Below, one piece after another: positions 1 to 13,918 of a stretch of DNA of 13,918 bases. Under the pieces are notes generated by a model. It was not told the origin of the DNA. It saw only the letters and a program-made list of their open reading frames with translations, and searched no databases. Source of the DNA: Actinomycetota bacterium (GTDB taxonomy: Bacteria > Actinomycetota > Actinomycetes > Nanopelagicales > Nanopelagicaceae); contig WLCS01000011.1 in NCBI GenBank assembly GCA_009705185.1, positions 1 through 13,918 of the forward strand, in the 5' to 3' direction. Each line of letters begins with the position of its first letter. The stretch's first letter is position 1. Made by a program: the position numbers and the translations under genes.

Positions 1-664
1 CATAGTTGATGGAAGCTTCATAACGAGCAACCATTGCAACAATTCTCTTGCCGACTTCAGGGTCAGTCGCGCGCGCAGCTAATAAATGTTCTGCGCCAAG
101 AATTTCAGTTGTTTCACCAAGAACAGATGTTGCGCCCATTTCTACAAGTCGATCACTTGCAACACCTAGGGCAGGGTTAGCTGTGATTCCTGACAACGCA
201 TCAGAGCCACCACATTCGAGACCCAAAACAATCGCGCTCCATGGTGCTTCAACGCGCTTTTCAGCTTTGGCCTCTGACACGTACTTATTTGCAATGGCAA
301 GTGCATCGGATTGTAACTTTTCCATCGAGCCAATTTCAGGAAGTGAAAGTACTGCCGAACGCTTGAGACCTAACTCTTTGGCACCTTCAATGATTGATTT
401 TTCTTCAGCGCTTCCGATTGTTAAAAAGAGCACTGCATAGTTATTTGGATTTGAGGCATAACCCGTAAGAGTAAAGAGGATGCGCTTGAGGTCGCTATCA
501 ATTTCTCCGGACCAATCGTGGCTAATTGCAACAGCGCCATCAGATGCATCGGCAATTGCGCGAGCGGTCGAGGCAAGTGCTGAATGCAGTGGCAGAACTA
601 ATACGTGATTACGCAAACCCCAACGACCGTTATCGCGCTTATAGGCAAAAAGTTTTTCGCTCAT
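1..664 (-). CDS. UxaA/GarD-family dehydratase-like large protein, C-terminus cut by window edge
   Basis: This is a partial gene of about 221 visible residues with no stop before the window edge. It belongs to the altronate/galactarate dehydratase (UxaA/GarD) family, whose characterised members dehydrate sugar acids to 2-keto-3-deoxy acids in the cytoplasm. The N-terminus carries the family opening YKRDNGRWGLRNHVLVLP (residues 8-25). Residues 150-172 carry the hallmark ECGGSDALSGITANPALG block with Cys151, and GETTEILGAEHLL follows at about 183-195. Two other family blocks are lost: HxHGCG reads SHDWSG (48-53), and GLGCE reads TIGSAE (82-87). The upstream paralogue keeps exactly those two blocks. 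The ATG overlaps the upstream TAA by one base (TAATG), so translation is probably coupled. The substrate is unknown; altronate or a 6-deoxy sugar acid are only guesses. I am sure of the family and unsure of the activity. Confidence 0.85.
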   Translation of the reverse strand, partial: MSEKLFAYKRDNGRWGLRNHVLVLPLHSALASTARAIADASDGAVAISHDWSGEIDSDLKRILFTLTGYASNPNNYAVLFLTIGSAEEKSIIEGAKELGLKRSAVLSLPEIGSMEKLQSDALAIANKYVSEAKAEKRVEAPWSAIVLGLECGGSDALSGITANPALGVASDRLVEMGATSVLGETTEILGAEHLLAARATDPEVGKRIVAMVARYEASINY

Positions 665-1482
665 TACACGCTCCTGACAACTCGAGGTGCGCGGATTTCG
701 CCGCTCTTGTTCTTCTCAGCAATTGTTTGCGCGCCGGCACTGACAGATTCGATCAAAGAAATAATGTCATTCTCAATAGTGGCTTCGGTGATATCGAAAT
801 CAGCGCGAATCGCTTGATGTAGCGCGCCAGAACTAGCCACATTGATTACTGGAATCAGCGGAAATCCTGATGGTGGCTGGGTTTCACTTGGGAAGCTAAT
901 AATGATGTGCGCTTTTTCTTGCGCAAGACGAGAGAAAGATTCGGCAGATGAAAAGGATGAATCAGAAATAATTACTGTGTGACCGGCTGCGACTAGTAAC
1001 TTTTCGAGCGCTGTAATCCCTGCATATCCGCGACCATTATCAATTCCCACTCGAAGTGTTGGGAGCTCTGCAGCAGTTGGCACAAATGCAGCATTTAATT
1101 CCTTGGCAGCTTTCACGCCAGCTTGCACAGTGCCTTCGACTCCGCCGCTCTCTTGAATGATGCGGTACTGGGTAGATTCATTGCTCTTTAATAATTTGGC
1201 AGCCAGCTCTTGTCCCTGAATAGTTTCACAACCAAGACCAATAACGAGTGCTGAATTTACATTGGGATGATCTGCTAACTGAATAAAGAAATTATCGATT
1301 CCAGCAACATCATCTCCAATAATTCCGCATCCATGTTGGTGGGCGAAGGTGACTCCGTCTACTTCCGTTGCAATACGTCGGGCAACATGAGTAGAACAGA
1401 CAACGGATGGAAGAATTAATTGGTGATTGCGAATTCCTGCGCCACGATTTCCGTGAGCGAATCCCTTAATCGCTGAACTCAT
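664..1482 (-). CDS. UxaA/GarD-family paralogue, shortened, ECGGSD motif degenerate
   Basis: A 272-residue protein homologous to the large domain of UxaA/GarD dehydratases but shorter; the usual large part is about 400 residues. It keeps the opening GNRGAGIRNHQLILPSVVC (residues 11-29), the HQHGCG block (48-53, Cys52), GLGCE (82-86, Cys85) and IQESGGVEGTVQAG (109-122). The ECGGSDxxSGITA block has degenerated to IDNGRGYAGITA (147-158), without the Cys. About 100 residues of the central core then appear to be missing. The tail (about 196-240, FPLIPVINVA followed by a DFDITEATI stretch) resembles the normal C-terminal end of the family. Its start overlaps the SAF gene by 4 nt (ATGA) and its stop overlaps the next gene by 1 nt, as expected for subunits made together. 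It could be a non-catalytic partner or half of a composite active site. Family assignment is firm; function is inferred. Confidence 0.85.
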   Translation of the reverse strand: MSSAIKGFAHGNRGAGIRNHQLILPSVVCSTHVARRIATEVDGVTFAHQHGCGIIGDDVAGIDNFFIQLADHPNVNSALVIGLGCETIQGQELAAKLLKSNESTQYRIIQESGGVEGTVQAGVKAAKELNAAFVPTAAELPTLRVGIDNGRGYAGITALEKLLVAAGHTVIISDSSFSSAESFSRLAQEKAHIIISFPSETQPPSGFPLIPVINVASSGALHQAIRADFDITEATIENDIISLIESVSAGAQTIAEKNKSGEIRAPRVVRSV

Positions 1483-1754
1483 ACTTGCTCCGATGAAAGT
1501 CGATCGCCCAAAATATTATGAACATGAACATGCTCGCCAACAGCTATGGGTGCAACGGCATGTCCCATGCGTTCGCCGTATTTGATAATGCCATCATTTT
1601 TGTTGATAGGCCGTGATGCAATTTTGTGGCCGCGAGGAATTCTGTTGAGAACTTTTATAGAGATGTCGTCTTGTTCAATGACATCACCTTCATTGAGATC
1701 TACTAGACAGACAGCGATGTTATCTCGCGGATCTAGGATCAGTATTTTTCTCAT
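1479..1754 (-). CDS. SAF-domain small subunit of a UxaA/GarD-type dehydratase
   Basis: A 91-residue stand-alone SAF domain, equivalent to the N-terminal domain of single-chain UxaA and GarD. Family marks visible are IPRGHKIA (residues 39-46), IIKYGERMGHA (56-66) and GEHVHVHNI (73-81), the last being the usual GxxVHxHN ending. In related enzymes this domain packs against the large domain and helps form the substrate pocket. In some, such as sulfolactate lyase SuyA/SuyB, it is a separate subunit. Here it is followed by two large-domain genes with a 4-nt overlap (ATGA), supporting a multi-subunit enzyme. The gene starts 11 nt after the upstream kinase stop with only a weak ribosome binding site, so it may depend on translational coupling. 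The reaction is not assignable from sequence. Confidence 0.88.
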   Translation of the reverse strand: MRKILILDPRDNIAVCLVDLNEGDVIEQDDISIKVLNRIPRGHKIASRPINKNDGIIKYGERMGHAVAPIAVGEHVHVHNILGDRLSSEQV

Positions 1755-1765
1755 GATGACGCACT

Positions 1766-3112
1766 CTACCTAATTCCTGCGATTTGGAAAGGATTAATGA
1801 GAGAGAGAAATTCTTGGTAACGATTTTCAAGTGCGACCATCTCATTTTCATCCGGTGTAATCACCTGAGCAATTGAACTGTTAAAAACATCGAGTCCTGC
1901 TCCAACATCGGCACCTCGATGACCAGCTGCTGCAATCATTGCAGCACCGATATCAGAACCAGAAGTTTTCACTAACGAGATTGGTCTATGTAAAACGGTG
2001 GCGCGGATTCGAGACCAAATAGCTGACTTAGATCCACCGCCGACGGTGTACAAAGTTCCTGAATTATCAGCACCGGCAGCAGCTAACGTTTCATATGCAA
2101 GACGTTCGGCAAAAGCAATCCCTTCAAGGATTGATCGGTATTCATCAACTTCATCAGTGGGTGCTTGTGATCGAATTTCTTTCATATCTTTATTAGCAAT
2201 TGGAAAACGTTCGCCTGTTCCTACCAGCGGATACACAACTGAACTTGCTGGTCCGTGTGCAGCAGCTTTGTTATCCCACTGGGCGATATCAGATTTGAAT
2301 TTATCAAATGAGATGCCACCAAGATTTGATGCAGCACCGGCTAACCAACGATCTTTCGGAAGTAAGTGACTGTAGAAACCCGGTCCTGCAATCTCTTTAC
2401 TGCCGACAACTTTTAATACAAGAGTTGTACCCAGCGTTGAAACCGCGCAACCAATTGAGGCATCCCCTACTGAAATCTGCGCTGTACATCCATCGGTCAT
2501 ACCCGCGTAAATTGGAATTGCACCGAGAGATGTTGTACCCAGCAATGTTCCGGGTGCGCCAACTGTTGGCAATGAGATTGACAATGATTGAGCTTGCGCC
2601 AGTGCTTCTGCTTTCCATTGTCCAGTGTTGATATCAACGCCAGTTTTGAGCGCGTGGCTCCAGTCGGTTGAGATATCAGAAATTTTCTGCTGCGTTAAGT
2701 GAGCAACTAAGTATTCAGCGGTGTGGGCAAATAAATATTGACCGCTTGCCGACTCTTTAATAATCGCTTCTGCACGACCTAGTGGTGAACCTGCGCGTCC
2801 GTCGTTATACATTGCAGCTGGCGCGATTGGCTCTCCGTTCTTGTCTGTAAGAACGAATGTGCCCGATGTAGCAGTAATACACATGGCGCTAATAGAAAGC
2901 GTGGCTTTCTCGGCTTCTACGAGAATCTGCTGCAGAAGAGAATCAATTGCTGTAATCCAACTTGCTGGGTCTTGAGTAAGACGACCATCTGCTCCGCGCT
3001 GCACTGGAGCAAGATCGTGTGTAATGCGCGCATGAATATTGGAATCAATATCGAGTAAAACTGCACGTGCGGATTGGGTTGCAAAATCTATTCCGAGAAA
3101 AACTTCTTTCAT
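1766..3112 (-). CDS. FGGY-family sugar kinase, D-ribulokinase/XK1-like
   Basis: A 448-residue FGGY carbohydrate kinase, a cytoplasmic enzyme that would phosphorylate a free sugar with ATP. The N-terminal phosphate-binding stretch is GIDFATQSARAVLLD (residues 7-21, with Asp9 and Thr12). Residues 82-106 carry TSGTFVLTD and AAMYNDGRA, which recall the cyanobacterial/plant XK1 D-ribulokinase group rather than classical xylulokinase. AGMTDGC (203-209) supplies the likely catalytic base Asp207. TLGTT (227-231) and VGGGSKSAIW (357-366) are the C-terminal nucleotide-binding segments. It starts directly after the HAD gene stop (TAA then ATG, no gap). A dedicated rhamnulokinase is present in the same operon, so this kinase should have a different substrate, possibly a product of the 3-epimerase encoded on the other strand. 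That substrate link is inference. Confidence 0.88.
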   Translation of the reverse strand: MKEVFLGIDFATQSARAVLLDIDSNIHARITHDLAPVQRGADGRLTQDPASWITAIDSLLQQILVEAEKATLSISAMCITATSGTFVLTDKNGEPIAPAAMYNDGRAGSPLGRAEAIIKESASGQYLFAHTAEYLVAHLTQQKISDISTDWSHALKTGVDINTGQWKAEALAQAQSLSISLPTVGAPGTLLGTTSLGAIPIYAGMTDGCTAQISVGDASIGCAVSTLGTTLVLKVVGSKEIAGPGFYSHLLPKDRWLAGAASNLGGISFDKFKSDIAQWDNKAAAHGPASSVVYPLVGTGERFPIANKDMKEIRSQAPTDEVDEYRSILEGIAFAERLAYETLAAAGADNSGTLYTVGGGSKSAIWSRIRATVLHRPISLVKTSGSDIGAAMIAAAGHRGADVGAGLDVFNSSIAQVITPDENEMVALENRYQEFLSLINPFQIAGIR

Positions 3113-3775
3113 TTACAGTGCAGCAATCGCTTCAGGAATTCCTACAAGAGATGGCAAGACGATGTCAGGAGTCTTTAAATCTGCATCAGTAGGATCTGGG
3201 TTTGCTTCACCGCGCAGAATCCATGCGGTGCACATACCTAATTTCTGTGCAGGAAGGACATCGGTATCCAAGCGATTTCCTACGTGCACTGTCTGCTCTG
3301 GAGCAGTTCCTAATTCGTTAAGAGCCAATTTAAATATTGCAGGATCCGGCTTTTCGATTCCCACTACTGCAGAGACTCCGAGGAAATCTACAAGCTGGGC
3401 AATTGAATCTCGCTCGAGTGCCTGCACAACAGTGCGCGCTTGATTAGCAACAATTCCAATCTTGCATCCAGTACTGCGCATGGTTTCGATACAGTTTTTA
3501 GCATCGGCATATAAATCATTTTCAGTAAATATCCACTTTGCTGTTGCACGTTTCATAAGCTCTTCTTTGGAATCTAAGGATCCTAAGAATTCAACACATA
3601 ACTTGCTGCGCAATGAACCGCTCTGAGACTTTAAATGCTCGTTGTAAACGCTTTCAAATTTCTGTGCATCAATATTTCCTGCGATTTCCTCAAGTGCGCC
3701 AAAGATAGCTCTCTTAAAGACATCATCTGAATAAATAATGCCTCCGATATCAAAGGTGACGCCTTGAGGGATCAT
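3113..3775 (-). CDS. HAD-superfamily hydrolase with altered catalytic motifs
   Basis: A 220-residue HAD protein with a helical cap at about residues 18-90, of the size of small phosphosugar phosphatases. Motif I is FDIGG (8-12): nucleophile Asp9 is present but the +2 acid is Gly11, as also seen in some family members such as the YihX group. Motif II reads IGIVANQ (106-112), with Ala where Ser or Thr is usual. Motif III Lys142 (EKPDPAIF) is intact. Motif IV is HVGNRLDTDV (164-173), with Asn167 replacing the usual first Asp and Asp172 kept. It may be a phosphatase with weakened Mg2+ binding, or have another role. Its ATG overlaps the upstream aldolase stop by 1 nt and its stop directly abuts the kinase start, so it is embedded in the operon. 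Substrate unknown; removal of phosphate from a sugar phosphate of the pathway is a plausible housekeeping role. Confidence 0.85.
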   Translation of the reverse strand: MIPQGVTFDIGGIIYSDDVFKRAIFGALEEIAGNIDAQKFESVYNEHLKSQSGSLRSKLCVEFLGSLDSKEELMKRATAKWIFTENDLYADAKNCIETMRSTGCKIGIVANQARTVVQALERDSIAQLVDFLGVSAVVGIEKPDPAIFKLALNELGTAPEQTVHVGNRLDTDVLPAQKLGMCTAWILRGEANPDPTDADLKTPDIVLPSLVGIPEAIAAL

Positions 3776-4557
3776 TACTTATCGCCGGTGAGTAGCGCTC
3801 GTCGTGCAATTTCATCAGGGCGGAATGCGATTGTTTGCGCGGCGGTATTAGGAATGAAATTGATTCCGCCAGCAGCCAGTGCACCTAAGCGAATGCGCGC
3901 AGCTTTGACAGCAATTTGTGTCGTAGCAAGAGCTTCTTCTTTTCCATTTCCAAATGTGCACAGTCCGTGATTTCCCAAGATGATCTGGCGAGGATTCATG
4001 CCGTATTCCTCTTTATATTTAATTGCACCTTTGTAGAAACCAAGGCCGAGTGAGAGACCTGGTTCGTCATAAGGAAGATATAAAGGAATAGGTCCACAAA
4101 TAACGCTTTCGTCAGGAAATACGGTTCCGCTGTAATGCTCTGCAGCTTTTACTGAGGCAGCAAGTGAAACAACGGGAGTTGGGTGAGTATGTAGTGACCA
4201 TGTTGATTCAAGAAGGTGGAATGCGACAACGTGCACCAAAGTTTCAATACTTGCCTTTTTGCTTACTCCCCCAGGAGTTACTGCCGATTTTAAAATCGCA
4301 TCGAGTGCGCTATCTAATTTGGGCGAGCGACCATTCTTATTAGCATCGTCAAGAATCTCTATCGATTTACTTAAGCTGACCCACACCCAGTCTTCTGCAG
4401 TGGCTTCGCCCATGACGACTCCGCTGGCTTTTACTAAGAAGCGATCATTTGCAGCATCAAGAACTGCAGCATTGCCTTCGGCCAAAATTGTCAGGTCAGC
4501 ATCGGGTGCACCTGCACGCACTGCTAAATCTGAAATTTCCTCAGCTAATGTGGACAT
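3775..4557 (-). CDS. Class II aldolase/adducin-family protein
   Basis: A 260-residue class II (Zn2+-dependent) aldolase-type protein. Numbered from the upstream ATG at 4560, it shows AEGN (27-30), KASG (44-47), an SIET segment with candidate catalytic Glu106, the zinc pair HTHP (His124, His126), FPDE and PYDEPG (148-151, 163-168), and the third zinc ligand in GNHG (His198). It should cleave a ketose 1-phosphate to DHAP plus an aldehyde, but it does not look like E. coli RhaD. Since rhaEW already supplies rhamnulose-1-phosphate aldolase, this one may serve another phosphorylated ketose. Two ATGs lie in tandem. AGGAG at 4563-4567 is only 2 nt from the first but 5 nt from the second, so I chose 4557. 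The gap from rhaB is 8 nt or less, indicating one transcript. Confidence 0.85.
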   Translation of the reverse strand: MSTLAEEISDLAVRAGAPDADLTILAEGNAAVLDAANDRFLVKASGVVMGEATAEDWVWVSLSKSIEILDDANKNGRSPKLDSALDAILKSAVTPGGVSKKASIETLVHVVAFHLLESTWSLHTHPTPVVSLAASVKAAEHYSGTVFPDESVICGPIPLYLPYDEPGLSLGLGFYKGAIKYKEEYGMNPRQIILGNHGLCTFGNGKEEALATTQIAVKAARIRLGALAAGGINFIPNTAAQTIAFRPDEIARRALLTGDK

Positions 4558-4565
4558 CATCGCTC

Positions 4566-6044
4566 CTATTCCTCTGAATGAACTAACTCTTCGTATCGCG
4601 CTCGAACGTCTGAAATTTCTTGAATTTTTTCAGGTGCATAGCGTCCCAGTTGTAAGTGACTTGAGGCAATCAATTTACGTGCTGATTCGATATCGACTAC
4701 ATCACCGGCTGCAATCGCTTGAACAAATGCATTACCAATTGCGGTGGCCTCGATCGGGCCAGCGATTACTTCACGTCCTGAAAGCGTTGCGGTCATCTGC
4801 GACAAGTGAGCGTTCTGCGCACCGCCGCCAACAATGTGGATTGCGGGCATATCTTCGCCGCTGCATTGCTGCAAAACATCTGCTGTCTTGGCATATTGCA
4901 ATGCAAGGGATGCAAATGTTGCTTGGGCTAATTGACCCGGAGTCTCGGGAACCGGCTGACCAGACTTACGCGCATATTCTTGAATTCTAGAAATCATATT
5001 TCCGGCATAAACAAATATCGGAGCATCAACGAAGAAAAGTGTGCGCCAAGGGTCAGCTTCTTTACGTGCAAGCTCGACAAGGTCGACGTACGAAATTTCG
5101 GTGCCTTGTGATTTTAAGTCACGGCGAATCTCTTGAATAATCCAGAGCCCCGTGATGTTACGCAACAAGCGAATACTTCGGTCAAATCCACCTTCATTTG
5201 TTAGGCGCTCATCAAGAGTAATTTCATTAGTGATGGCGGTATCAATCTCAACGCCCATCAAAGACCATGTGCCAGATGAAATGTATGCACTTCCTGGAGA
5301 TTCAAGTGGTGTGGCAACTACTGCAGCAGCTGTGTCATGGCTTGTTGTAGCAACACATTTCAGCGGACCAAGACCAGTTTTCTTCTGCAGATCTGGCGAA
5401 AGAGTTCCGCGCACTGTGCCGGCATCTTCTACTTCGCCCAGAATATGTGTTGGAATTCCGAGATCCCGAGCTAAGCCAAGTGCCCATTGATTATTGGTTG
5501 TGTCATACAGCCCAGTTGTGGATGCAATTGTGTATTCGGTTCCAATTTCTCCAGTAAGTGCAAAGAGAATCAGATCTGGCATCAACTGTAAGTACTGGGC
5601 TTTCTCTAATTCATCTGGTGTATTTTCAACAATCGAAAGCAGTTGGAAAACTGAGTTAATTTCAAGTAATTGTGCACCCGTTTCAAAGTGAAGTCTTTCG
5701 CGTCCAACAATTGACGATGCTTTTTCTAAGTACCCATCAGTGCGGTGATCGCGATGGCTTACGGGCAAAGTCACTAACTTCTTTTCTGCATCTAATAATC
5801 CGAAATCAAGGCCCCAAGTATCAACACCGAGTGATTCAAAGGGGCCATGAGGTGCCGCGAGTGAAAGTGCGTGCGTTACTTCTTCAATGATTCTCGGAAA
5901 ATCCCAACACCGTCTGCCGTGTGCATCTTGTGTAATAGGTGTTTCAAAGCGATATAGAACTTCAGTTGTAATTTCAGTGTTGATATCGACAATTACAAGT
6001 CGCCCAGATTCGGCGCCCATATCGAGAGACAAATAGCGTGACAT
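4566..6044 (-). CDS. rhaB: L-rhamnulokinase RhaB
   Basis: A 492-residue FGGY kinase matching rhamnulokinase in length (E. coli RhaB is about 489) and motifs. It phosphorylates L-rhamnulose to L-rhamnulose 1-phosphate with ATP in the cytoplasm. Visible marks are the N-terminal LDMGAESGRLVIVD (7-20), the RhaB-typical GVDTWGLDFGLLD (73-85), SHRDHRTDGY (96-105), SHDTAAAV (235-242) with catalytic Asp237 at the same number as in E. coli, SSGTWSLMG (256-264), and the C-terminal VGGGAQN. Upstream is a GAGGGGAA ribosome binding site about 8 nt from the ATG. It is the first gene of the left operon and is transcribed away from the ABC importer across a shared 226-bp regulatory region. Confidence 0.95.
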   Translation of the reverse strand: MSRYLSLDMGAESGRLVIVDINTEITTEVLYRFETPITQDAHGRRCWDFPRIIEEVTHALSLAAPHGPFESLGVDTWGLDFGLLDAEKKLVTLPVSHRDHRTDGYLEKASSIVGRERLHFETGAQLLEINSVFQLLSIVENTPDELEKAQYLQLMPDLILFALTGEIGTEYTIASTTGLYDTTNNQWALGLARDLGIPTHILGEVEDAGTVRGTLSPDLQKKTGLGPLKCVATTSHDTAAAVVATPLESPGSAYISSGTWSLMGVEIDTAITNEITLDERLTNEGGFDRSIRLLRNITGLWIIQEIRRDLKSQGTEISYVDLVELARKEADPWRTLFFVDAPIFVYAGNMISRIQEYARKSGQPVPETPGQLAQATFASLALQYAKTADVLQQCSGEDMPAIHIVGGGAQNAHLSQMTATLSGREVIAGPIEATAIGNAFVQAIAAGDVVDIESARKLIASSHLQLGRYAPEKIQEISDVRARYEELVHSEE

Positions 6045-6270: not shown

Positions 6271-7776
6271 TTGGCAAACAAGGGCGACCTTCTTCTAGAA
6301 ATGAAGGATGTTAAGAAACGTTTCGGTGGAGCAGTTGCTCTTCGCGGAACTTCTCTCTCTGTACGCGCGGGAGAAATTCATGCACTGCTCGGTGAAAACG
6401 GCGCAGGCAAATCAACAATGTTAAAAATTCTTGCTGGCGTGCATGTTCACGACGGCGGAGAAATCACTCTTGGTGGTTCAGCATTTATTTCTGGATCTCC
6501 GCAAGCATCTATCGACCAAGGTATCGCCGTTATCTATCAGGAACCTTCACTGTTCTTAGATCTTTCACTCGCCGAAAACGTATTCGTGGGAAGACAACCT
6601 AAGAAGGGCATCGCCATCGATTGGAAAGAGGCAGAAGCGCAAGCTTCTAAGCTTTTCAAAGAACTCGGTGTTGAACTCGATCCTAAGCGTCAAGCACGTG
6701 GACTTTCGATTGCAGACCAGCAAGTAGTTGAAATCGCTAAGGCGCTTTCAATGAACGCAAATATTATTTTGATGGACGAACCAACTGCAGCTCTCTCTGC
6801 CTCTGAAGTAGAACGCCTCATGACCGTGATGCGCAATCTTCGTGCAGCTAACAAGGCAGTTATTTTCGTAAGCCACCGCCTCGATGAAGTCTTCGCAATC
6901 TCAGACCACATCACCGTTATGCGTGATGGCGCAACTGTTTCAGAGAAGAAAATCGCTCAAACAGATTTGCAGACAGTTATTAAAGAGATGGTCGGCCGCG
7001 AGCTCACTGAACTCTTCCCAAAGACTGATCACCCGATTGGTGATGTAGTTCTTGAGGTAGAAAATCTCACTAATGCTGCCTACTTCCGCAATGTTTCCTT
7101 CACTGTGCGCAAAGGTGAAATCGTGGCACTTGCAGGACTTGTCGGAAGCGGCCGTTCTGAAATCGCTCGTTCAATCTTCGGAATCGATTCATACGATGAA
7201 GGTTCTGTAAAAATCAACCACAAGCCGCTGAAAAAGAACTCTCCTATTGCGGCTATGGACGTCAAGATTGCCCTCGTTCCTGAAGATCGTCGTCAACAAG
7301 GACTCTTCATGGTTGCCGGAGTAAATCGCAATATTTCGATGGAATCTTTCAGCCGTCTTACTGGTCGCTTCTTCATTAACTTTAAGAAGGAGCGCGCACT
7401 CACAAACGAATGGCGCGAGAACTTAAGTATTAAGTATGCGGATCAATCAGATCCAGTTGATCGTCTCTCTGGCGGAAATCAGCAGAAGACTGTGTTAGCT
7501 AAGTGGCTTGCTACAAATCCAGATCTTCTTATCGTTGACGAACCAACTCGCGGTATCGATGTTGGAACAAAGGCAGAAGTTCACCGCCTGATTGATAAGG
7601 CAGCTGGCGAAGGCAAAGCTGTTCTGATGATTTCAAGTGAGCTTCCAGAAGTTCTCGGAATGGCAGATCGCATCATTGTGATGCGCGAAGGTCGCCAAGT
7701 AACTGAACTTTCTCGCAAGGAAGCGACTCAGGAAAATGTCATTGCAGCAGCTACCACCGGAAAGAAGGGCATCTAA
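6271..7776 (+). CDS. rhaT: Sugar ABC importer ATP-binding protein (tandem ATPase, RhaT-like)
   Basis: A 501-residue cytoplasmic ATPase with two fused nucleotide-binding domains, the arrangement of RbsA/XylG/RhaT sugar importers. Domain 1 has Walker A GENGAGKST (residues 41-49), an ABC signature in degenerate form LSIADQQ (about 148) and Walker B ILMDEPTAAL. Domain 2 has the usual degenerate Walker A GLVGSGRSE (about 290), signature LSGGNQQK, and Walker B LLIVDEPTRGID. The start is TTG at 6271, chosen because GGAG at 6261-6264 is well spaced; a nearby ATG at 6266 is out of frame. It is followed by two permeases with 2-nt gaps. Rhamnose as cargo is inferred from the adjoining rhaB, rhaM and rhaI genes. 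Confidence 0.92.
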   Translation: MANKGDLLLEMKDVKKRFGGAVALRGTSLSVRAGEIHALLGENGAGKSTMLKILAGVHVHDGGEITLGGSAFISGSPQASIDQGIAVIYQEPSLFLDLSLAENVFVGRQPKKGIAIDWKEAEAQASKLFKELGVELDPKRQARGLSIADQQVVEIAKALSMNANIILMDEPTAALSASEVERLMTVMRNLRAANKAVIFVSHRLDEVFAISDHITVMRDGATVSEKKIAQTDLQTVIKEMVGRELTELFPKTDHPIGDVVLEVENLTNAAYFRNVSFTVRKGEIVALAGLVGSGRSEIARSIFGIDSYDEGSVKINHKPLKKNSPIAAMDVKIALVPEDRRQQGLFMVAGVNRNISMESFSRLTGRFFINFKKERALTNEWRENLSIKYADQSDPVDRLSGGNQQKTVLAKWLATNPDLLIVDEPTRGIDVGTKAEVHRLIDKAAGEGKAVLMISSELPEVLGMADRIIVMREGRQVTELSRKEATQENVIAAATTGKKGI

Positions 7777-7778
7777 AA

Positions 7779-8777
7779 GTGGCATCACTATTTAAGAGAA
7801 AAGCTTTGGGGCGTGAAGCAAGCCTTGGAGTAATTCTGATATTTGCAGTTGCAGTAACTGGCTTTATCAATCCGCGCTTCGTTACCGGTGATGGAACACG
7901 TGACTTGCTCTCCGCAACAGCCATTGTTGCTCTGTTGGCAATCGGTATCGCACCGATCATGATCATGCGCCATATCGACCTATCCATTGCATCAACTGTT
8001 GGTTTTTCTGCATGGCTAGTTGCCGATACCTGCGCTAAGAACCCTAGCTTTACCTGGGTTCAGTGCTTCCTAGTAGGTGGCTCACTTGGAATCGTTATCG
8101 GAATCCTTAATGGTCTACTCGTTGCAGGACTTCGACTACCTTCATTGGTGGTCACACTCGGAACTTTGTACATTGTTCGAGGCGGCGTTTATGTTGTTTC
8201 AAACTCTGTTGACTACAACGCACAGGAAATGCCTAAGAGCCTTCTGAAAATCGGCTCGACAGCATTCTTTGGATTGTTGCCAGTCCCATTCTTCTTAGCA
8301 CTCGTGCTCATGGCAATTGTTGCCTGGTTCCTGAAGTACACAAAGGCTGGTCGCGATTGCTATGCAATTGGTAGCAATCCCCCAGCGGCTGACCTTGTTG
8401 GACTTAAAGTTTTCCGCAGAACATTTCTTGCATATATCTTCTCCGGATTTATCGCAGGAATCGCAGGAGTCTTCTACTTGATGCGCTTTGCTCAAGTTGA
8501 CTCGACTGCGTTCTACGGACAAGAACTTGCAGTTGTTGCAGCGGCAGTAATCGGTGGAATCGGATTACTTGGTGGCGCAGGAACTGCTGTCGGCGTTGTT
8601 ATCGGTGCACTTCTTGTACAGACAATTCAGGGAGCACTCGCAGCACTTGGTGTAGATGCGTTCTGGAAAGCTGCAATCAACGGTCTCTTACTTATCGTTG
8701 CAATTTATGCTGACCGAATCCTTGCAAGTAGGAGCGAAAAAGCCTTACTCGCCCAAAGAATCAAAGAGAGGGTTTAA
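7779..8777 (+). CDS. rhaP: Sugar ABC importer permease 1 (RhaP-like)
   Basis: A 332-residue inner-membrane permease of the RbsC/XylH type (BPD_transp_2). Hydrophobic segments fill most of the length, roughly eight to ten membrane spans by eye. The family stretch RHIDLSIAS (normally GxIDLSVGS) is present near residue 65. The cytoplasmic coupling-helix region GRDCYAIGSNPPAADLVGLKV (beginning near 191) should dock on the ATPase. The start is GTG at 7779, 2 nt after the ATPase stop; AGAAGGG at 7763-7769 inside the ATPase gene serves as ribosome binding site. It is paralogous to the next gene and would form a heterodimeric channel with it. The P versus Q naming follows gene order in Rhizobium and is tentative. 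Confidence 0.88.
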   Translation: MASLFKRKALGREASLGVILIFAVAVTGFINPRFVTGDGTRDLLSATAIVALLAIGIAPIMIMRHIDLSIASTVGFSAWLVADTCAKNPSFTWVQCFLVGGSLGIVIGILNGLLVAGLRLPSLVVTLGTLYIVRGGVYVVSNSVDYNAQEMPKSLLKIGSTAFFGLLPVPFFLALVLMAIVAWFLKYTKAGRDCYAIGSNPPAADLVGLKVFRRTFLAYIFSGFIAGIAGVFYLMRFAQVDSTAFYGQELAVVAAAVIGGIGLLGGAGTAVGVVIGALLVQTIQGALAALGVDAFWKAAINGLLLIVAIYADRILASRSEKALLAQRIKERV

Positions 8778-8779
8778 TC

Positions 8780-9763
8780 GTGCCAGAGAAAAATAAATTT
8801 AAACTTCGCAAGTCCTGGGACACGGCAATTCTTGCACTGCTCTTCGTAGTCTGGGTATTGGCTTCAATGACCACAGATAACTTCTTGAGCTCTATCAACG
8901 TTTCGCAGATCTTCTCTAACTCAAGTGAAATCATGATCATGGGCTTTGCCATGGTCTTCTTGATTATCGCTGGCGAAATCGATTTATCAATCGCATCAAT
9001 CTTGGCTCTCAGTAGCGCCATGCTTGGTTATTCATATGCACACGGTGCACCAATCTGGCTTGCGATTCTTATCGCTATGGCAGTGGGTACAACATGTGGG
9101 TTTATTAATGGATTCCTAGTTACAAAGTTAGGCCTTGGTTCTCTTGCTGTCACGATCGGAGCTTTGGCGCTCTATCGCGGTATAGCAAACGGAATCCTAG
9201 GAACAAATACCATTAACGAATTCCCAGAGTTCTGGACTAACTTCGGCTTCGACACAATTGGAAAATCATTTATTCCACAGACACTTCCAGTAATTATTGT
9301 ATTTGGAATTTTCTTTGGTCTATTACTTCACAACACTCCATTTGGTCGTCGCACACTTGCAATTGGACAGAGCCAAATGGCTGCTCGATTCGCTGGTGTA
9401 AATGTTGTGCGCCATAAGATCATCATCTTTACATTCACTGGATTCATGTCAGGTGTCGCAGGAATCATTTACACATTCCGTTTCTCTACTGCGCAAGCAG
9501 ATAACGGTGTTGGACTTGAACTTCTAGTTATCTCTGCTTGTCTCTTAGGTGGAGTTTCCATCTTCGGTGGTATCGGAACTATGTGGGGCGTTGTAGCAGG
9601 TGTAATGCTTGCAAGCAGCGTTGAATCATGGTTAACACTTCGTGAGATCAATGCACAGTGGCGAACAATCGTTACAGGTATTTTGCTTTTGATTTCCGTT
9701 GCAGCACCAGTACTCGTTGATAAGTGGAAGCGAGCAAAGGCAACAGCTGCCAATAAGTCATAA
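8780..9763 (+). CDS. rhaQ: Sugar ABC importer permease 2 (RhaQ-like)
   Basis: A 327-residue BPD_transp_2-family permease, paralogue of the preceding gene, strongly hydrophobic with roughly eight to ten membrane spans. It carries IAGEIDLSIASILALSS (about residues 54-70) as the family hallmark and GRRTLAIGQSQMAARFAGV as the ATPase-docking loop. The start is GTG at 8780, two bases after the upstream TAA; a GAGAGGG at 8766-8772 provides the ribosome binding site. The membrane part of the importer ends here. The binding-protein gene follows only after a 248-nt gap with inverted repeats, so the two halves of the importer may be expressed at different levels. Confidence 0.88.
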   Translation: MPEKNKFKLRKSWDTAILALLFVVWVLASMTTDNFLSSINVSQIFSNSSEIMIMGFAMVFLIIAGEIDLSIASILALSSAMLGYSYAHGAPIWLAILIAMAVGTTCGFINGFLVTKLGLGSLAVTIGALALYRGIANGILGTNTINEFPEFWTNFGFDTIGKSFIPQTLPVIIVFGIFFGLLLHNTPFGRRTLAIGQSQMAARFAGVNVVRHKIIIFTFTGFMSGVAGIIYTFRFSTAQADNGVGLELLVISACLLGGVSIFGGIGTMWGVVAGVMLASSVESWLTLREINAQWRTIVTGILLLISVAAPVLVDKWKRAKATAANKS

Positions 9764-9790
9764 ATAGCTTTACTTGGGGTTCCTCCGGGC

Positions 9791-9805
9791 ATTGAACAAT
9801 TCAAT
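9791..9805. promoter_or_regulatory. 15-bp palindromic operator candidate (ATTGAACAATTCAAT)
   Basis: Exact reverse complement of the site at 6154-6168. It lies about 220 bp before the binding-protein start and inside the nested stem-loop, so the same bases could act as a DNA operator and as part of an RNA fold. Confidence 0.7.
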
Positions 9806-9810
9806 GCGCA

Positions 9811-9831
9811 TTAAACAATTCAACTGTTTAA
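9811..9831. promoter_or_regulatory. 21-bp palindrome with TTAAACA / TGTTTAA arms
   Basis: Perfect 7-bp arms (extendable to 8 bp with the flanking A and T, 9810-9832) flank a 7-bp centre ATTCAAC, the same 7-7-7 geometry as 6196-6216. Its left part, TTAAACAATTCAA, also differs by only one base from the core of the 15-bp operator, so it may be two overlapping half-related sites. Confidence 0.55.
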
Positions 9832-9964
9832 TACCGGAGGAATTCACTTTTTCTACGCATAATCTTCACCAAACCGTTATAAAACATATCTAGTGATTTA
9901 CGACAAGTAGTCCTAGAGTTTCGGCACGGACCCAGTTAGCGAATTTGCTGGCCATGGCACGGCG

Positions 9965-9986
9965 GTGAAATAAAAAATTATTTCAC
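9965..9986 (+). other. AT-rich hairpin in the leader of the binding-protein gene
   Basis: Arms GTGAAATAA (9965-9973) and TTATTTCAC (9978-9986) are perfectly complementary around AAAA. The hairpin ends 16 nt before the AAAGGAAA ribosome binding site, so in the mRNA it could protect the 5' end or influence ribosome access. No data support a specific role. Confidence 0.5.
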
Positions 9987-10011
9987 TTTGTTTTCAACGA
10001 AAGGAAACACC

Positions 10012-11034
10012 TTGAAGAAACTACTCGCAGCAATTGCAACAGCTGCTCTTGTTACAACAACACTTGTAACAGGCACAGTTGCTCCTGCTTCAGCAGCTAC
10101 TAAATTGAAGATCGCACACATCCCTAAGCTCGGCACAATTGGATATTTCCAAGCTGCTGATAAGGGTGTACAGCGCGCATGTAAAGAGCTCAAGGCAACT
10201 TGTGCATACAAGGGCCCAACAGAAATTACAGCAGCTGCACAGGTTAAGGAAATTAACGCAGCAGTTCAGTCTGGTTACAACGTAATCATTCTTGCTGCTA
10301 ACGATAAGGACGCACTTGTTCCAGCACTTAAGGCAGCACAGAAGAAGGGTGTAACAGTTGTTACATACGATTCAGATGTTGCACAAGCTGGTCGTTCAGT
10401 ATTCATTAACCAGGCATCATCAAAGGGAATTGGCCAGGCTCTAGCAGCTTCAGCTAACGACCTTGCTGGTGGTTCTGGTGAAATCGCAGTTCTTTCAACA
10501 ACTCCTGATGCTACAAACCAGAACGTATGGATTGACTTCATGAAGGAAGAAATCGCTGCTAAGTATCCAAACCTCAAGCTTGTTGCTACAGCTTATGGCC
10601 TTGATAAGCCAGAAGAATCAACAACAGAGACACAGGGACTTATCCAGAAGTATCCAAACGTTAAGGTAATCGTTGCACCAACATCTGTTGGAATTGTTGC
10701 GGCTGCTAAGTACGTCAGCGGATCTTCATCAAAGGGTAAGGTCTTCGTAACAGGTCTTGGTCTTCCAAACGACATGAAGACATACATCAAGGACGGATCA
10801 AACGCTCAGGCATCACTATGGGATGTTGAGAACTTTGGTTACGTAGCTGTTCAGGTTGCTAACTCAATCAAGAACGCAAAGGCATCTGTAAAGGTTGGCG
10901 CAAAGATCGCTTCAGGTAAGGGCGATAAGGGCCTCAAGTCTCGTACAGTTACTAAGGGTGCAGTAGGAAACGAAATCATCCTTGGACCAGCTACTGTCTT
11001 TACAAAGGCAAACGTAGATCAGTTCAACTTCTAA
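10012..11034 (+). CDS. rhaS: Secreted sugar-binding protein of the ABC importer (RhaS-like)
   Basis: A 340-residue substrate-binding protein of the ribose/rhamnose type (Peripla_BP_4 fold), which would deliver the sugar to the permease pair. The N-terminus is a clear signal peptide: KK, then a hydrophobic stretch, then an ASA cleavage motif near residue 27. There is no lipobox cysteine. The mature part begins KLKIAHIPKLGTIGYF. Two cysteines ten residues apart near the N-terminus (ACKELKATC) could form a disulfide. I chose TTG at 10012 because AAAGGAAA at 10000-10007 is well spaced and it gives a clean signal peptide; the TTG at 9988 would add an unlikely extension. Codon choice is strongly biased (ACA for Thr, AAG for Lys), as expected for a very highly expressed gene. 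It is flanked on both sides by strong hairpins. Confidence 0.9.
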   Translation: MKKLLAAIATAALVTTTLVTGTVAPASAATKLKIAHIPKLGTIGYFQAADKGVQRACKELKATCAYKGPTEITAAAQVKEINAAVQSGYNVIILAANDKDALVPALKAAQKKGVTVVTYDSDVAQAGRSVFINQASSKGIGQALAASANDLAGGSGEIAVLSTTPDATNQNVWIDFMKEEIAAKYPNLKLVATAYGLDKPEESTTETQGLIQKYPNVKVIVAPTSVGIVAAAKYVSGSSSKGKVFVTGLGLPNDMKTYIKDGSNAQASLWDVENFGYVAVQVANSIKNAKASVKVGAKIASGKGDKGLKSRTVTKGAVGNEIILGPATVFTKANVDQFNF

Positions 11035-11053
11035 TTAGAGGTTAACTCTGATG

Positions 11054-11089
11054 GATTCAGGCAGTTCCCTTCGGGGAACTGCCTGAATC
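11054..11089 (+). terminator. 16-bp perfect hairpin with UUCG tetraloop
   Basis: Arms 11054-11069 (GATTCAGGCAGTTCCC) and 11074-11089 are perfectly complementary over 16 bp around TTCG, closed by C-G, the exceptionally stable C(UUCG)G loop. It starts 20 nt after the binding-protein stop. The downstream tract is only TCTTTC, poor for intrinsic termination, so it may be a leaky terminator or a 3'-end stabiliser of the binding-protein mRNA. Confidence 0.8.
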
Positions 11090-11103
11090 TCTTTCAGGAC
11101 AAT

Positions 11104-11116
11104 TTGAACAGTTAAA
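11104..11116. promoter_or_regulatory. Degenerate operator candidate (TTGAACAGTTAAA)
   Basis: The halves TTGAAC and GTTAAA pair around a central A with one mismatch. The sequence agrees with the TTGAACAATTCAA core of the sites at 6154-6168 and 9791-9805 at 11 of 13 positions. It lies about 40 bp before the epimerase-like gene, a suitable place for a local promoter operator. Confidence 0.5.
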
Positions 11117-11156
11117 GCGAATCAAATAAACAATTAGGATCACGAGAAGAGGCACC

Positions 11157-12017
11157 ATGTCAGTATCAAAGCGACTTGAATTCGGTGGCCACGCACTTGT
11201 GTGGGCAGGCGATTGGTCTGCAGACGGTGCACGCGCAGCTATCAGTGGCGCAGCGCGCTCTGGGTATGACTATGTAGAGATCGCACTTCTTGATCCATGG
11301 AAAGTTGATACCGCGATGACTCGCGATTTATTGGCTGAGTACGGCGTTCGCGCACATGCATCGCTAGGCCTCTCCCCTACAACAGATGTCACAAGCACAG
11401 ATAAATCAATTATTGCTAAAGGTGATGAACTTCTTCGCAAGGCAACCGATGTACTTCACGAACTTGGTGGCACAGAACTTTGCGGTGTTCTCTATTGCTC
11501 GCTCCAGAAATATCCTGGACCAGCCTCAAAAGAAAATCGTGCTAATTCTGTAGCAGCAATGCAACGCTTATCTGATTACGCAGCCGATAAGGGCATCAAC
11601 GTAAATTTTGAAGTCGTCAACCGCTATGAAACCAACATTATGAATACAGGTATTGAAGGACTTAAATTCCTCGAGGAAGTAAATCGCCCAAATACGTATG
11701 TGCACCTTGATACCTATCATATGAATATTGAAGAAGATGGAATGGCTAAGTCAGTCTTAGCAGCTGGAGACAAACTAGGTTTTGTCCATATCGGTGAAAG
11801 CCATCGTGGGTACTTGGGTTCAGGCAACGTTGATTTTGATACTTTCTTCGATGCGCTGAAAAAAATTAATTACCAAGGCCCAATCACTTTTGAGTCATTC
11901 TCTTCAGCTGTTGTTGATCCAGCTCTTTCAAATGCCCTCTGCGTATGGCGCAACCTCTGGAGTGATTCAGATGATCTTGCCAGTACAGCGCTAAAATTCA
12001 TGAAGGAGAGAATCTAA
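11157..12017 (+). CDS. Ketose 3-epimerase (D-tagatose/D-psicose 3-epimerase family)
   Basis: A 286-residue TIM-barrel protein of the sugar phosphate isomerase/epimerase superfamily. The four metal-binding residues fall exactly at the numbers known for Pseudomonas cichorii D-tagatose 3-epimerase: Glu152 (FEVVNRYE), Asp185 (HLDTYHMNIEE), His211 (HIGESHRG) and Glu246 (FESF), with Arg217 also present. The family swaps configuration at C3 of free ketoses using Mn2+ or Co2+. The gene heads the rhaM-rhaI-rhaEW cluster and is followed by rhaM with a 2-nt gap. In a rhamnose pathway it could act on L-rhamnulose, whose C3 epimer would be 6-deoxy-L-psicose, or feed another ketose to the second kinase. 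The family call is strong; the natural substrate is unknown. Confidence 0.87.
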   Translation: MSVSKRLEFGGHALVWAGDWSADGARAAISGAARSGYDYVEIALLDPWKVDTAMTRDLLAEYGVRAHASLGLSPTTDVTSTDKSIIAKGDELLRKATDVLHELGGTELCGVLYCSLQKYPGPASKENRANSVAAMQRLSDYAADKGINVNFEVVNRYETNIMNTGIEGLKFLEEVNRPNTYVHLDTYHMNIEEDGMAKSVLAAGDKLGFVHIGESHRGYLGSGNVDFDTFFDALKKINYQGPITFESFSSAVVDPALSNALCVWRNLWSDSDDLASTALKFMKERI

Positions 12018-12019
12018 TA

Positions 12020-12343
12020 ATGCAAAGAGTTGGCTTCAGACTTCAGATTCGTCCTGAGATGGCAGATGAATATGCACGCCGTCATGCAGAGGTGTGGCCA
12101 GATATGTTGCAAGCGCTGCGCGAAACTGGCTGGACTAATTACTCAATTTATCTCGATCGCGCAGATGGAACACTCTTCGGATATTTAGAAACTCCGGATT
12201 TAGAAGCAGCAAAAGCGGGTATGGCAACACGTGAAGTAAATGCACGATGGCAAGCAGATATGGCACCTTTTTTCTTAGCTCTCGATGGCAAGAATCCTGA
12301 TGAAGGTTTCTTGCTCCTCGAAGAAGTTTTTCATCTCAACTAA
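12020..12343 (+). CDS. rhaM: L-rhamnose mutarotase RhaM
   Basis: A 107-residue protein matching RhaM in full length (E. coli RhaM is 104). It interconverts the alpha and beta anomers of L-rhamnose, supplying the form used by the isomerase. Catalytic His22 and Tyr18 sit at the same positions as in E. coli (EYARRHAEVWPDM, residues 17-29). SIYLD and LFGYLE (42-46, 52-57) are further family marks, and NARWQADMAPFF closes the core. GGAG at 12005-12008 lies 11 nt before the ATG, inside the end of the epimerase gene. Placement between the epimerase and rhaI in one operon supports the assignment. In Rhizobium the homologue is called RhaU. Confidence 0.95.
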   Translation: MQRVGFRLQIRPEMADEYARRHAEVWPDMLQALRETGWTNYSIYLDRADGTLFGYLETPDLEAAKAGMATREVNARWQADMAPFFLALDGKNPDEGFLLLEEVFHLN

Positions 12344-12379
12344 ATTTCATTCAACACCTACAGCAAGGGAGTACATAAA

Positions 12380-13546
12380 ATGGCAACAGTAAACGAGGCA
12401 AAGGAAGCCCTTAAGCGCTTCTGGATTGAAACTCCCTCATGGGCTTACGGAAATTCAGGTACGCGCTTTAAAGTATTTGCTCAGCCAGGTGTACCTCGCG
12501 ATCCATACGAGAAGTTAGCCGATGCTGCGCAGGTTCATAAGTTCACTGGCGCTGCCCCATCAGTTGCAATGCATATCCCTTGGGATAAAGTCGATGATTA
12601 CAAGCACCTTGCTGATTACGCAAAGGACCTTGGAGTACGCCTTGGAACAATTAACTCAAATACATTCCAAGATGATGATTACAAGTTGGGTTCTGTCTGT
12701 CACCCTGATGCAAAGATTCGCCAAAAGGCTGTCGATCACTTGTACGAGTGCATCGACATCATGGATCAGACAGGTGTCAAAGATATAAAGCTCTGGTTTG
12801 CAGATGGCACTAACTATCCTGGCCAAGATAATCTTGCAGCCCGCCAAGATCGCTTAGCTGAGTCACTTCGTAAGTGCTACGACCGCCTTGGTCCAGACCA
12901 GCGCATGCTTCTTGAATACAAATTCTTCGAGCCAGCTTTCTACTCAACAGATGTTCCAGACTGGGGAACTTCATATGTTCACTGTCTCGAACTCGGCGAG
13001 AAAGCTTCAGTCTGTGTAGATACTGGTCATCATGCACCTGGTACAAATATTGAATACATCGTTGCATTCTTGCTTCGTAAGAAGCGCCTTGGTGCATTCG
13101 ACTTCAACTCACGTTTCTATGCAGATGACGATTTGATCGTAGGAGCTGCAGATCCGTTCCAGTTATTCCGCATCATGCACGAGGTAAATCAGAACGGTGG
13201 TTTCGATGTTGGAACTCCAGTTTCGTATGTTCTAGATCAATGCCACAACATTGAAGAGAAGATCCCTGCTCAGATTCGTTCAATCACAAACGTGCAAGAA
13301 GCTGTTGCAAAAGCCCTTCTTGTAGATGCTGCTGCTCTTAAGAAAGCACAGCTTGCAGGAGATATCTTGGGTGGAAATGATATTTTGATGCACGCATACA
13401 ACACAGATGTACGTCCAATGCTCGAAGAACTTCGCGTTGAGATGGGTGCATCTGCAGATCCAAAGACTGCATATGCAAAGAGTGGATATGCACAGAAGAT
13501 TGCTGCCGACCGCGTCGGTGGTGCACAGGCCGGATGGGGAGCGTAA
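12380..13546 (+). CDS. rhaI: L-rhamnose isomerase, RhaI type
   Basis: A 388-residue metal-dependent TIM-barrel isomerase of the RhaI type (as in Pseudomonas stutzeri and actinobacteria), distinct from E. coli RhaA. It converts L-rhamnose to L-rhamnulose. Visible active-site segments are LLEYKFFEP (Glu179 and Lys181), CVDTGHHAPG (Asp214, His217, His218), FDFNSRFYADDDL (239-252) and DQCHN (286-290). By memory, the P. stutzeri enzyme has a metal-binding His in the sequence FHFND where this protein has Asp241 (FDFNS). AGGGAG at 12366-12371 lies 8 nt before the ATG. A 36-nt gap separates it from rhaM, and its stop overlaps the next ATG by one base, so rhaEW translation is probably coupled. Confidence 0.93.
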   Translation: MATVNEAKEALKRFWIETPSWAYGNSGTRFKVFAQPGVPRDPYEKLADAAQVHKFTGAAPSVAMHIPWDKVDDYKHLADYAKDLGVRLGTINSNTFQDDDYKLGSVCHPDAKIRQKAVDHLYECIDIMDQTGVKDIKLWFADGTNYPGQDNLAARQDRLAESLRKCYDRLGPDQRMLLEYKFFEPAFYSTDVPDWGTSYVHCLELGEKASVCVDTGHHAPGTNIEYIVAFLLRKKRLGAFDFNSRFYADDDLIVGAADPFQLFRIMHEVNQNGGFDVGTPVSYVLDQCHNIEEKIPAQIRSITNVQEAVAKALLVDAAALKKAQLAGDILGGNDILMHAYNTDVRPMLEELRVEMGASADPKTAYAKSGYAQKIAADRVGGAQAGWGA

Positions 13547-13918
13547 TGACGACACCTAAAGTCGTAAAGGAACTATTAGAGAGAAGCAACAGATTAGGTT
13601 CAGAGCCGAGATTTACTAACTACGCAGGTGGAAACACATCTGCGAAAGGCTCTGTTCCGAATCCTGCTACAGGTCACGAAACCACAGTGCTGTGGGTAAA
13701 GGGATCTGGTGGAGATTTAGGAACAATGACTGAATCTGGTCTTGCAGCTCTTGAGTTAGATAAATTCAAAGACTTGCAGAATGTATATCGAGGCGTTGAA
13801 TTTGAAGACGAGATGGTTGCGCTCTTTGATTACTGCAAATTTGGTACATCAGGTGCTGCTCCAAGTATCGATACAACGATGCATGGGCTTGTTCCATTTG
13901 ATCATGTAGATCATTTGC
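13546..13918 (+). CDS. rhaEW: Bifunctional rhamnulose-1-phosphate aldolase/alcohol dehydrogenase, N-terminal part
   Basis: Only the first 124 codons are inside the window. They match the N-terminus of the bifunctional class II aldolase/short-chain dehydrogenase (RhaEW, YuxG-like): RFTNYAGGNTSAK (residues 22-34), VLWVKGSGGDLGTM (49-62), then the MHG and FDHVDHL segment near 112-124, which carries the start of the zinc-ligand region. The aldolase half splits L-rhamnulose 1-phosphate into DHAP and L-lactaldehyde. The dehydrogenase half, not visible here, would oxidise or reduce lactaldehyde. The ATG overlaps the rhaI stop by one base (TAATG). The reading frame stays open to the window end. Confidence 0.9.
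   Translation, partial: MTTPKVVKELLERSNRLGSEPRFTNYAGGNTSAKGSVPNPATGHETTVLWVKGSGGDLGTMTESGLAALELDKFKDLQNVYRGVEFEDEMVALFDYCKFGTSGAAPSIDTTMHGLVPFDHVDHL

Follow-up and report, generated by a model that had tools for sequence, protein, structure and literature searches.

Sugar-acid dehydratases such as UxaA (D-altronate dehydratase) and GarD (galactarate dehydratase; structure 6u7l) carry a SAF domain, a cysteine site and an ECGGSD site in one chain. At one end of the window, by which we mean the whole 13,918-nucleotide stretch of DNA analyzed here, the same domains are spread over three chains, with the sites divided between two paralogues, A and B; the four cysteines are the same in total. The question raised by this locus is whether the three genes encode a single enzyme, and what each would contribute to it. 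The initial annotation proposed an obligate heteromer with one composite site. Comparison supports that proposal well, because the gene set is fixed, A and B have the same genome distribution, the cysteines are split three to one, conservation is reciprocal and haloarchaea have the same motif split. We estimate a probability of roughly 0.78 that SAF, A and B form one obligate heteromeric, iron-dependent sugar-acid dehydratase of the UxaA/GarD superfamily, a complex and an activity predicted here from sequence. Such an enzyme is a variant of this family and not a new kind of enzyme. Judged by titles and abstract openings, none of the open-licence papers listed describes a tripartite or complementary UxaA. 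If the reading is true, complementary loss would here have made an obligate heteromer out of a homomeric enzyme, and the unit, from bacteria abundant in fresh water, would be a clear natural example.

Organization of the SAF-A-B unit

As originally described, a SAF-domain gene is followed by two overlapping genes with UxaA/GarD large domains, all on the minus strand (Table 1). SAF and A overlap by 4 bases, A and B by 1. The small gene product matches Pfam SAF and the altronate hydrolase N-domain 3k3s (E 9e-16). A matches GD_AH_second only, whereas B matches GD_AH_second and the start of GD_AH_C. The GD_AH_second (PF04295) scores are 104.6 bits for A and 63.8 bits for B, against a curated cut-off of 27.3; GD_AH_C (PF20629) gives 102.1 bits for B and no match for A. 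Taken chain by chain, the NCBIfam galactarate dehydratase model TIGR03248 scores A at 30.7, the truncated B at 92.7 and SAF at 32 bits, each below the equivalog cut-off of 730.85. On the composite reading, annotating A alone as "altronate dehydratase" would be misleading.

Table 1. Features of the SAF-A-B locus and its surroundings; positions are those of the window unless a locus is named.
Feature	Position	Strand	Remarks
SAF-domain subunit	1479..1754	-	91 aa; separate gene equivalent to the N-terminal domain of UxaA; Pfam SAF E 2.8e-08
Subunit A	664..1482	-	272 aa; domain-2 cysteine site kept, ECGGSD block lost, C-terminal domain reduced
Subunit B	2..664	-	221 aa visible; PF20629 E 4e-29, PF04295 E 2.3e-17
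A Cys29 codon (LPSVVC)	1396..1398	-	Invariant in aligned rows
A Cys52 codon (HQHGC)	1327..1329	-	Invariant in aligned rows
A Cys85 codon (GLGCE)	1228..1230	-	Invariant in aligned rows
B Cys151 codon (ECGGSD)	212..214	-	Invariant in aligned rows
FGGY kinase, HAD phosphatase, class II aldolase, rhamnulokinase	1766..6044	-	Upstream of SAF-A-B
Full-length B relative	L004:2316-3479

B is truncated because the window starts at the end of its contig, in an assembly that is 67% complete. The full-length B relative of G002, a genome of the same genus, has 387 aa and ends in an ordinary C-terminal domain. The possibility, raised at the outset, that B continues into another intact UxaA copy is therefore not realized in the relatives. 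Compared with that full-length B, A is shortened; it has HQHGCG and GLGCE and is without the ECGGSD block, as first reported. The reported reverse pattern in B holds as well, with DWSG and IGSAE replacing the first motifs and ECGGSD kept. Only two retained cysteines had been recognized in A, Cys52 and Cys85; both are present, but a third, Cys29 in LPSVVC, had been overlooked.

Conservation of the unit in other genomes

The three-gene neighborhood, for which a search in other genomes had been proposed, does recur elsewhere. Scanned with the A alignment, genome contigs yielded 47 loci, all with actinobacterial titles. Wherever A is near-full (at least 251 aa), in 46 of 46 loci, SAF, A and B are consecutive, in that order and on one strand; the remaining locus, L063, runs off its contig. 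Among 201 sampled genomes of the order, A (counted at E < 1e-99) and the close B type (at least 62% identity) occur in the identical 36; this count is not independent of that of the 47 loci, because some of the genomes probably belong to species already represented there. Another 53 of the 201 have only a distant B relative (31-39% identical, a few as fragments), with the close A absent, and G238 has an A-like protein with B absent. Outside the class, the unit is present in G664, from another class of Actinomycetota, where SAF-A-B shows the same division of motifs, at 39% identity for A and 50% for B.

The alignment retained L057, although the end of A and the start of B look frame-shifted there. 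From the hits in the phylum, L160, L166, L169 and L170 were dropped by name, two of them (L166 and L169) being repeats of L064 and L069, L159 was excluded by length, and L172 was excluded as its best match was B. One in-frame TAA is present in B of G302 (L094), and A there has no stop. Four loci (L022, L040, L044 and L056) come from assemblies filed as Bifidobacterium breve, which are probably misnamed; the loci resemble those of freshwater actinobacteria.

A further, longer A-like protein is encoded in four related genomes (L136:4034-5158, L137:3520-4623, L138:2789-3820 and L006). The three full copies have 343-374 aa; HGC is lost in all three, the C29 and GCE cysteines are kept in two, and GD_AH_second is weak in the two that were scanned. 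SAF and B were not found in three of the stretches (L136, L137 and L138). Among the neighbors are solute-binding proteins and, in one stretch, a mandelate-racemase-type enolase.

Division of the four family cysteines

The motif counts and the alignment of invariant residues cover all loci, in 47 aligned rows that represent 46 loci and one duplicate (L004 = L022). HxxGC, LGCE and LPxVxCST are present in A in 47/47 rows, and CGGSD in none. Conversely, B has ECGGSD in 47/47 rows, HxxGC in none, and no cysteine in the GLGCE region in any row; in four rows (L025, L047, L051 and L052) B has a cysteine two residues beyond the place of C29. The invariant residues are C29, H48, C52, C85, E86 and Q110 in A, and E150-D155, E184, H193 and many further C-terminal ones in B.

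All 37 intact one- or two-component UxaA/GarD relatives examined have cysteine at all four positions. For the table of the four cysteines, as for the all-protein tree, 16 of the 46 acI loci were used. In it, the first three cysteines are each present in 18/18 A-type and 0/17 B-type proteins, and the fourth in 0/18 and 17/17, respectively. Thus neither large chain has all four; A has three and B one, and only jointly is the set complete. Two-component dehydratases (Priestia, Metabacillus, E. albertii) also have a separate SAF, as here, but their large subunits, unlike A or B, keep all four cysteines. By gene context, the L-fuconate dehydratase of Paraburkholderia is of this two-component SAF + large type (PMC6336799).

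What might these cysteines do? In D-arabinonate dehydratase, Cys134, Cys173, Cys208 and Cys276 (spacing 39/35/68) are proposed iron ligands, and these four were put forward as common iron-binding sites of the superfamily, sulfolactate sulfo-lyase apart (PMC6336799). The spacing in ten single-chain relatives is close, at 32-37, 33-36 and 63-73 residues, and the four family cysteines here would correspond to these published ligands. According to published work, these enzymes contain iron, and their reaction starts with abstraction of the alpha-proton, after which the 3-OH is lost by beta-elimination. We infer that the iron is bound at the cysteine site of A, and that the substrate and the base belong to B. 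Domain 2 of A (Cys29, His48, Cys52, Cys85, Gln110) would supply the cysteine-bound iron site, the C-terminal domain of B (ECGGSD, ETTE..AEHLL, EEKSLG, TGRGTP) the substrate/base site and the fourth cysteine, and SAF the N-terminal domain. Neither large subunit would be expected to work alone. The presumed iron and substrate sites of a poorly understood Fe dehydratase family would then lie on two chains, so that the role of iron could be tested by mixing subunits.

Reciprocal conservation and predicted folds

The two halves of A and B are conserved in opposite senses. Mean pairwise identity in A is 64.0% for domain 2 versus 45.1% for the C-terminal part, with domain 2 higher in 136/136 pairs; in B the values are 47.4% versus 79.7%, and domain 2 is higher in 0/120 pairs. 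The intact two-component actinobacterial relatives give 60.6% versus 68.9%, domain 2 being higher in 6/120 pairs. Each subunit therefore seems to be constrained mainly in the half whose motifs survive. Distances in A and B correlate with r = 0.938, which is expected anyway for linked genes.

A GarD-like fold is predicted both for A and for a B relative. The model of the latter (L004) matches GarD with a TM of 0.77; for the model of A, GarD was absent from the 50 Foldseek rows listed and ranked first on a second look. Conserved loops of the B model (154-160, 221-241 and 304-307) have low confidence, which may only reflect the 38-row alignment. In the structure of GarD, the second domain is reportedly the dimer interface. 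Since the predicted models of A and of the B relative match GarD, it is plausible that A and B pair in the manner of the GarD dimer.

A similar partition in haloarchaea

Units of the form large1-SAF-large2 occur on haloarchaeal plasmids, with the annotation "UxaA family hydrolase" given three times; their motifs are divided in the same complementary way as in A and B. In 11/11 units fetched (from 16 listed records, H101-H116), large1 has ECGGSD without the three cysteines, and large2 has the three cysteines without CGGSD; in one of the 11, Haladaptatus QDMS2, large2 has a cysteine at the fourth position, again without CGGSD. The identities are reciprocal here too, at 62.1% for domain 2 versus 51.8% for the C-terminal part in large2 (domain 2 higher in 54/55 pairs) and 64.2% versus 80.4% in large1 (0/55 pairs). 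The units differ from SAF-A-B in gene order. They also differ in that the A-like subunit is not shortened like A; it has about 365-390 aa when its start is annotated correctly. For Halostagnicola large2 (L083:5882-7089), the annotated start seems too late, as the match to A also spans an upstream "hypothetical protein".

In the all-protein tree, A joins haloarchaeal large2 (94.5/97, on long branches), but B does not join large1. Trees of the separate parts used about half of the 16 acI loci. In the C-terminal tree, the B clade is firm (99.3/100) and stands beside the two-component Priestia/Metabacillus enzymes (76.8/77), whereas large1 falls with other two-component enzymes (90.1/90) and not with B; the domain-2 tree does not recover A with large2. 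By the AU test, neither B+large1 (p 0.20) nor A+large2 (p 0.56) is rejected. The initial annotation had A and B arise by duplication followed by specialization. The trees do not demonstrate that history, with B placed by Priestia/Metabacillus and A either with large2 or, in the other tree, unplaced. Tentatively, and at less than even odds, the same partition may have arisen twice, in Actinomycetota and in haloarchaea. The resulting heterodimer would be asymmetric, its composite iron site alive on one side and the mirror site dead on the other. If so, a homomeric dehydratase would have been divided naturally between two subunits, one for the iron and one for the substrate.

Could B and SAF act without A?

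The SuyAB sulfolactate sulfo-lyase type has a separate SAF subunit and a large subunit that, like B, is without the three domain-2 cysteines. The statement that single-chain relatives carry all the motifs thus stands for the 37 intact proteins and fails for the SuyB-like large subunits, in which the first three cysteines are missing in 13/13. The intact and SuyB-like groups were defined once the motifs were known, and the all-protein tree separates them too. Five genomes with a SuyB-like subunit (G015, G064, G080, G126 and G170) have a single GD_AH_second match each, and so have no A partner. With the cysteines missing and no partner in these genomes, a large subunit that has lost the site does not necessarily need one. 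B and SAF might, by the same token, be the whole catalyst, SuyB-like and without cysteine-bound iron, with A, derived from a UxaA domain, acting as a regulator, as a stabilizer or in iron delivery; the complete absence of the ECGGSD block from A would agree with this.

We nevertheless regard such a division of labor as improbable. A keeps precisely the cysteine site of the intact dehydratases (18/18), and not just a binding surface. B relatives fall with the intact dehydratases, away from the SuyB-like clade (96.4/82), so that relatives that do without the motifs, foreseen in the initial annotation as an objection, do exist but belong to a different clade. Moreover, the identified neighbors of the unit include genes for uronates, fucose or rhamnose. 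No sulfonate neighborhood was seen among the scanned window genes, which instead include sugar kinases, aldolases and rhamnose-type genes. The name SuyB is itself assigned from gene context in Haloarcula, where the unit has a sulfate exporter and Ldh as neighbors. By that name and context, SuyB-like proteins would eliminate sulfite rather than water. Their loss of the three cysteines fits an iron site needed for the removal of hydroxide, and is at the same time the main argument against a need for A.

A locus in the order itself, L012, and other genomes of the order have a separate SAF and a SuyB-like large subunit; in L012 the neighbors read, from translations only, as Gfo/Idh and a 2-hydroxyacid dehydrogenase. 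The check for SuyB-like motifs covered a small number of the 53 genomes with only a distant B relative. These units may point to sulfolactate-type catabolism.

A and B might also have taken on new functions as two independent homomers, enzymes or pseudoenzymes, with only the operon in common. Nothing speaks for this directly, beyond a GarD-like fold being predicted for each alone, and we think it very unlikely, given the adjacency and identical genome distribution of the two, the complementary loss also seen in haloarchaea and the correlation of their distances, for what it is worth in linked genes. Assembly error or decaying pseudogenes, suggested by the contig end of an incomplete assembly and by the stop in B of G302, are refuted by conservation, with strongly conserved residues and frames open in 46 loci, including the complete chromosome CP015606, as well as in the haloarchaeal plasmid records.

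Gene neighborhoods and likely substrates

For the single heteromeric dehydratase that we favor, the surroundings offer several substrates. UxaC and a reductase of the mannitol-dehydrogenase family lie convergently downstream in 13 of the 47 loci (a total that counts the window), CP015606 (strain IMCC26077) among them, which puts the unit in the place where UxaA is expected. The one UxaC representative scanned is over the cut-off for glucuronate isomerase; the one reductase scanned is nearest to fructuronate reductase and passes no NCBIfam cut-off. In G196, a 99%-complete genome in one contig, B is the only GD_AH_C match and UxaC is two genes away. UxuA-family genes are present in 6 of 10 genomes searched, among them G196, where they are elsewhere in the genome.

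Other loci have other neighbors. An alpha-L-fucosidase gene lies 50 bases upstream of the unit in L019. In L022, the gene immediately upstream clusters with an FAA-hydrolase-domain gene, and a member of an FMN lactate-dehydrogenase-like cluster, present in 21 loci, is downstream. The kinase, phosphatase, aldolase and rhamnulokinase set of the window is common to 7/47 loci, counting the window, and includes rhamnose-type genes. Farther along the window, on the plus strand (6271-13918), are genes that read, from translations only, as an ABC sugar importer, followed in this list by an L-rhamnose isomerase, which scores over cut-off, and by the first part of a bifunctional aldolase/dehydrogenase. 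In the window, a phosphorylating rhamnose pathway would thus adjoin the dehydratase unit.

Because the neighborhoods vary, no one substrate can be assigned. The likely substrate is D-altronate where the unit sits with UxaC and the uronate reductase, and L-fuconate-like acids elsewhere. According to the published account of the D-arabinonate enzyme, D-altronate and L-galactonate have the same configuration as D-arabinonate at C2-C4, and both, like L-fuconate, are weak substrates of that enzyme. With this shared configuration and these weak side activities, one type of enzyme could serve several pathways.
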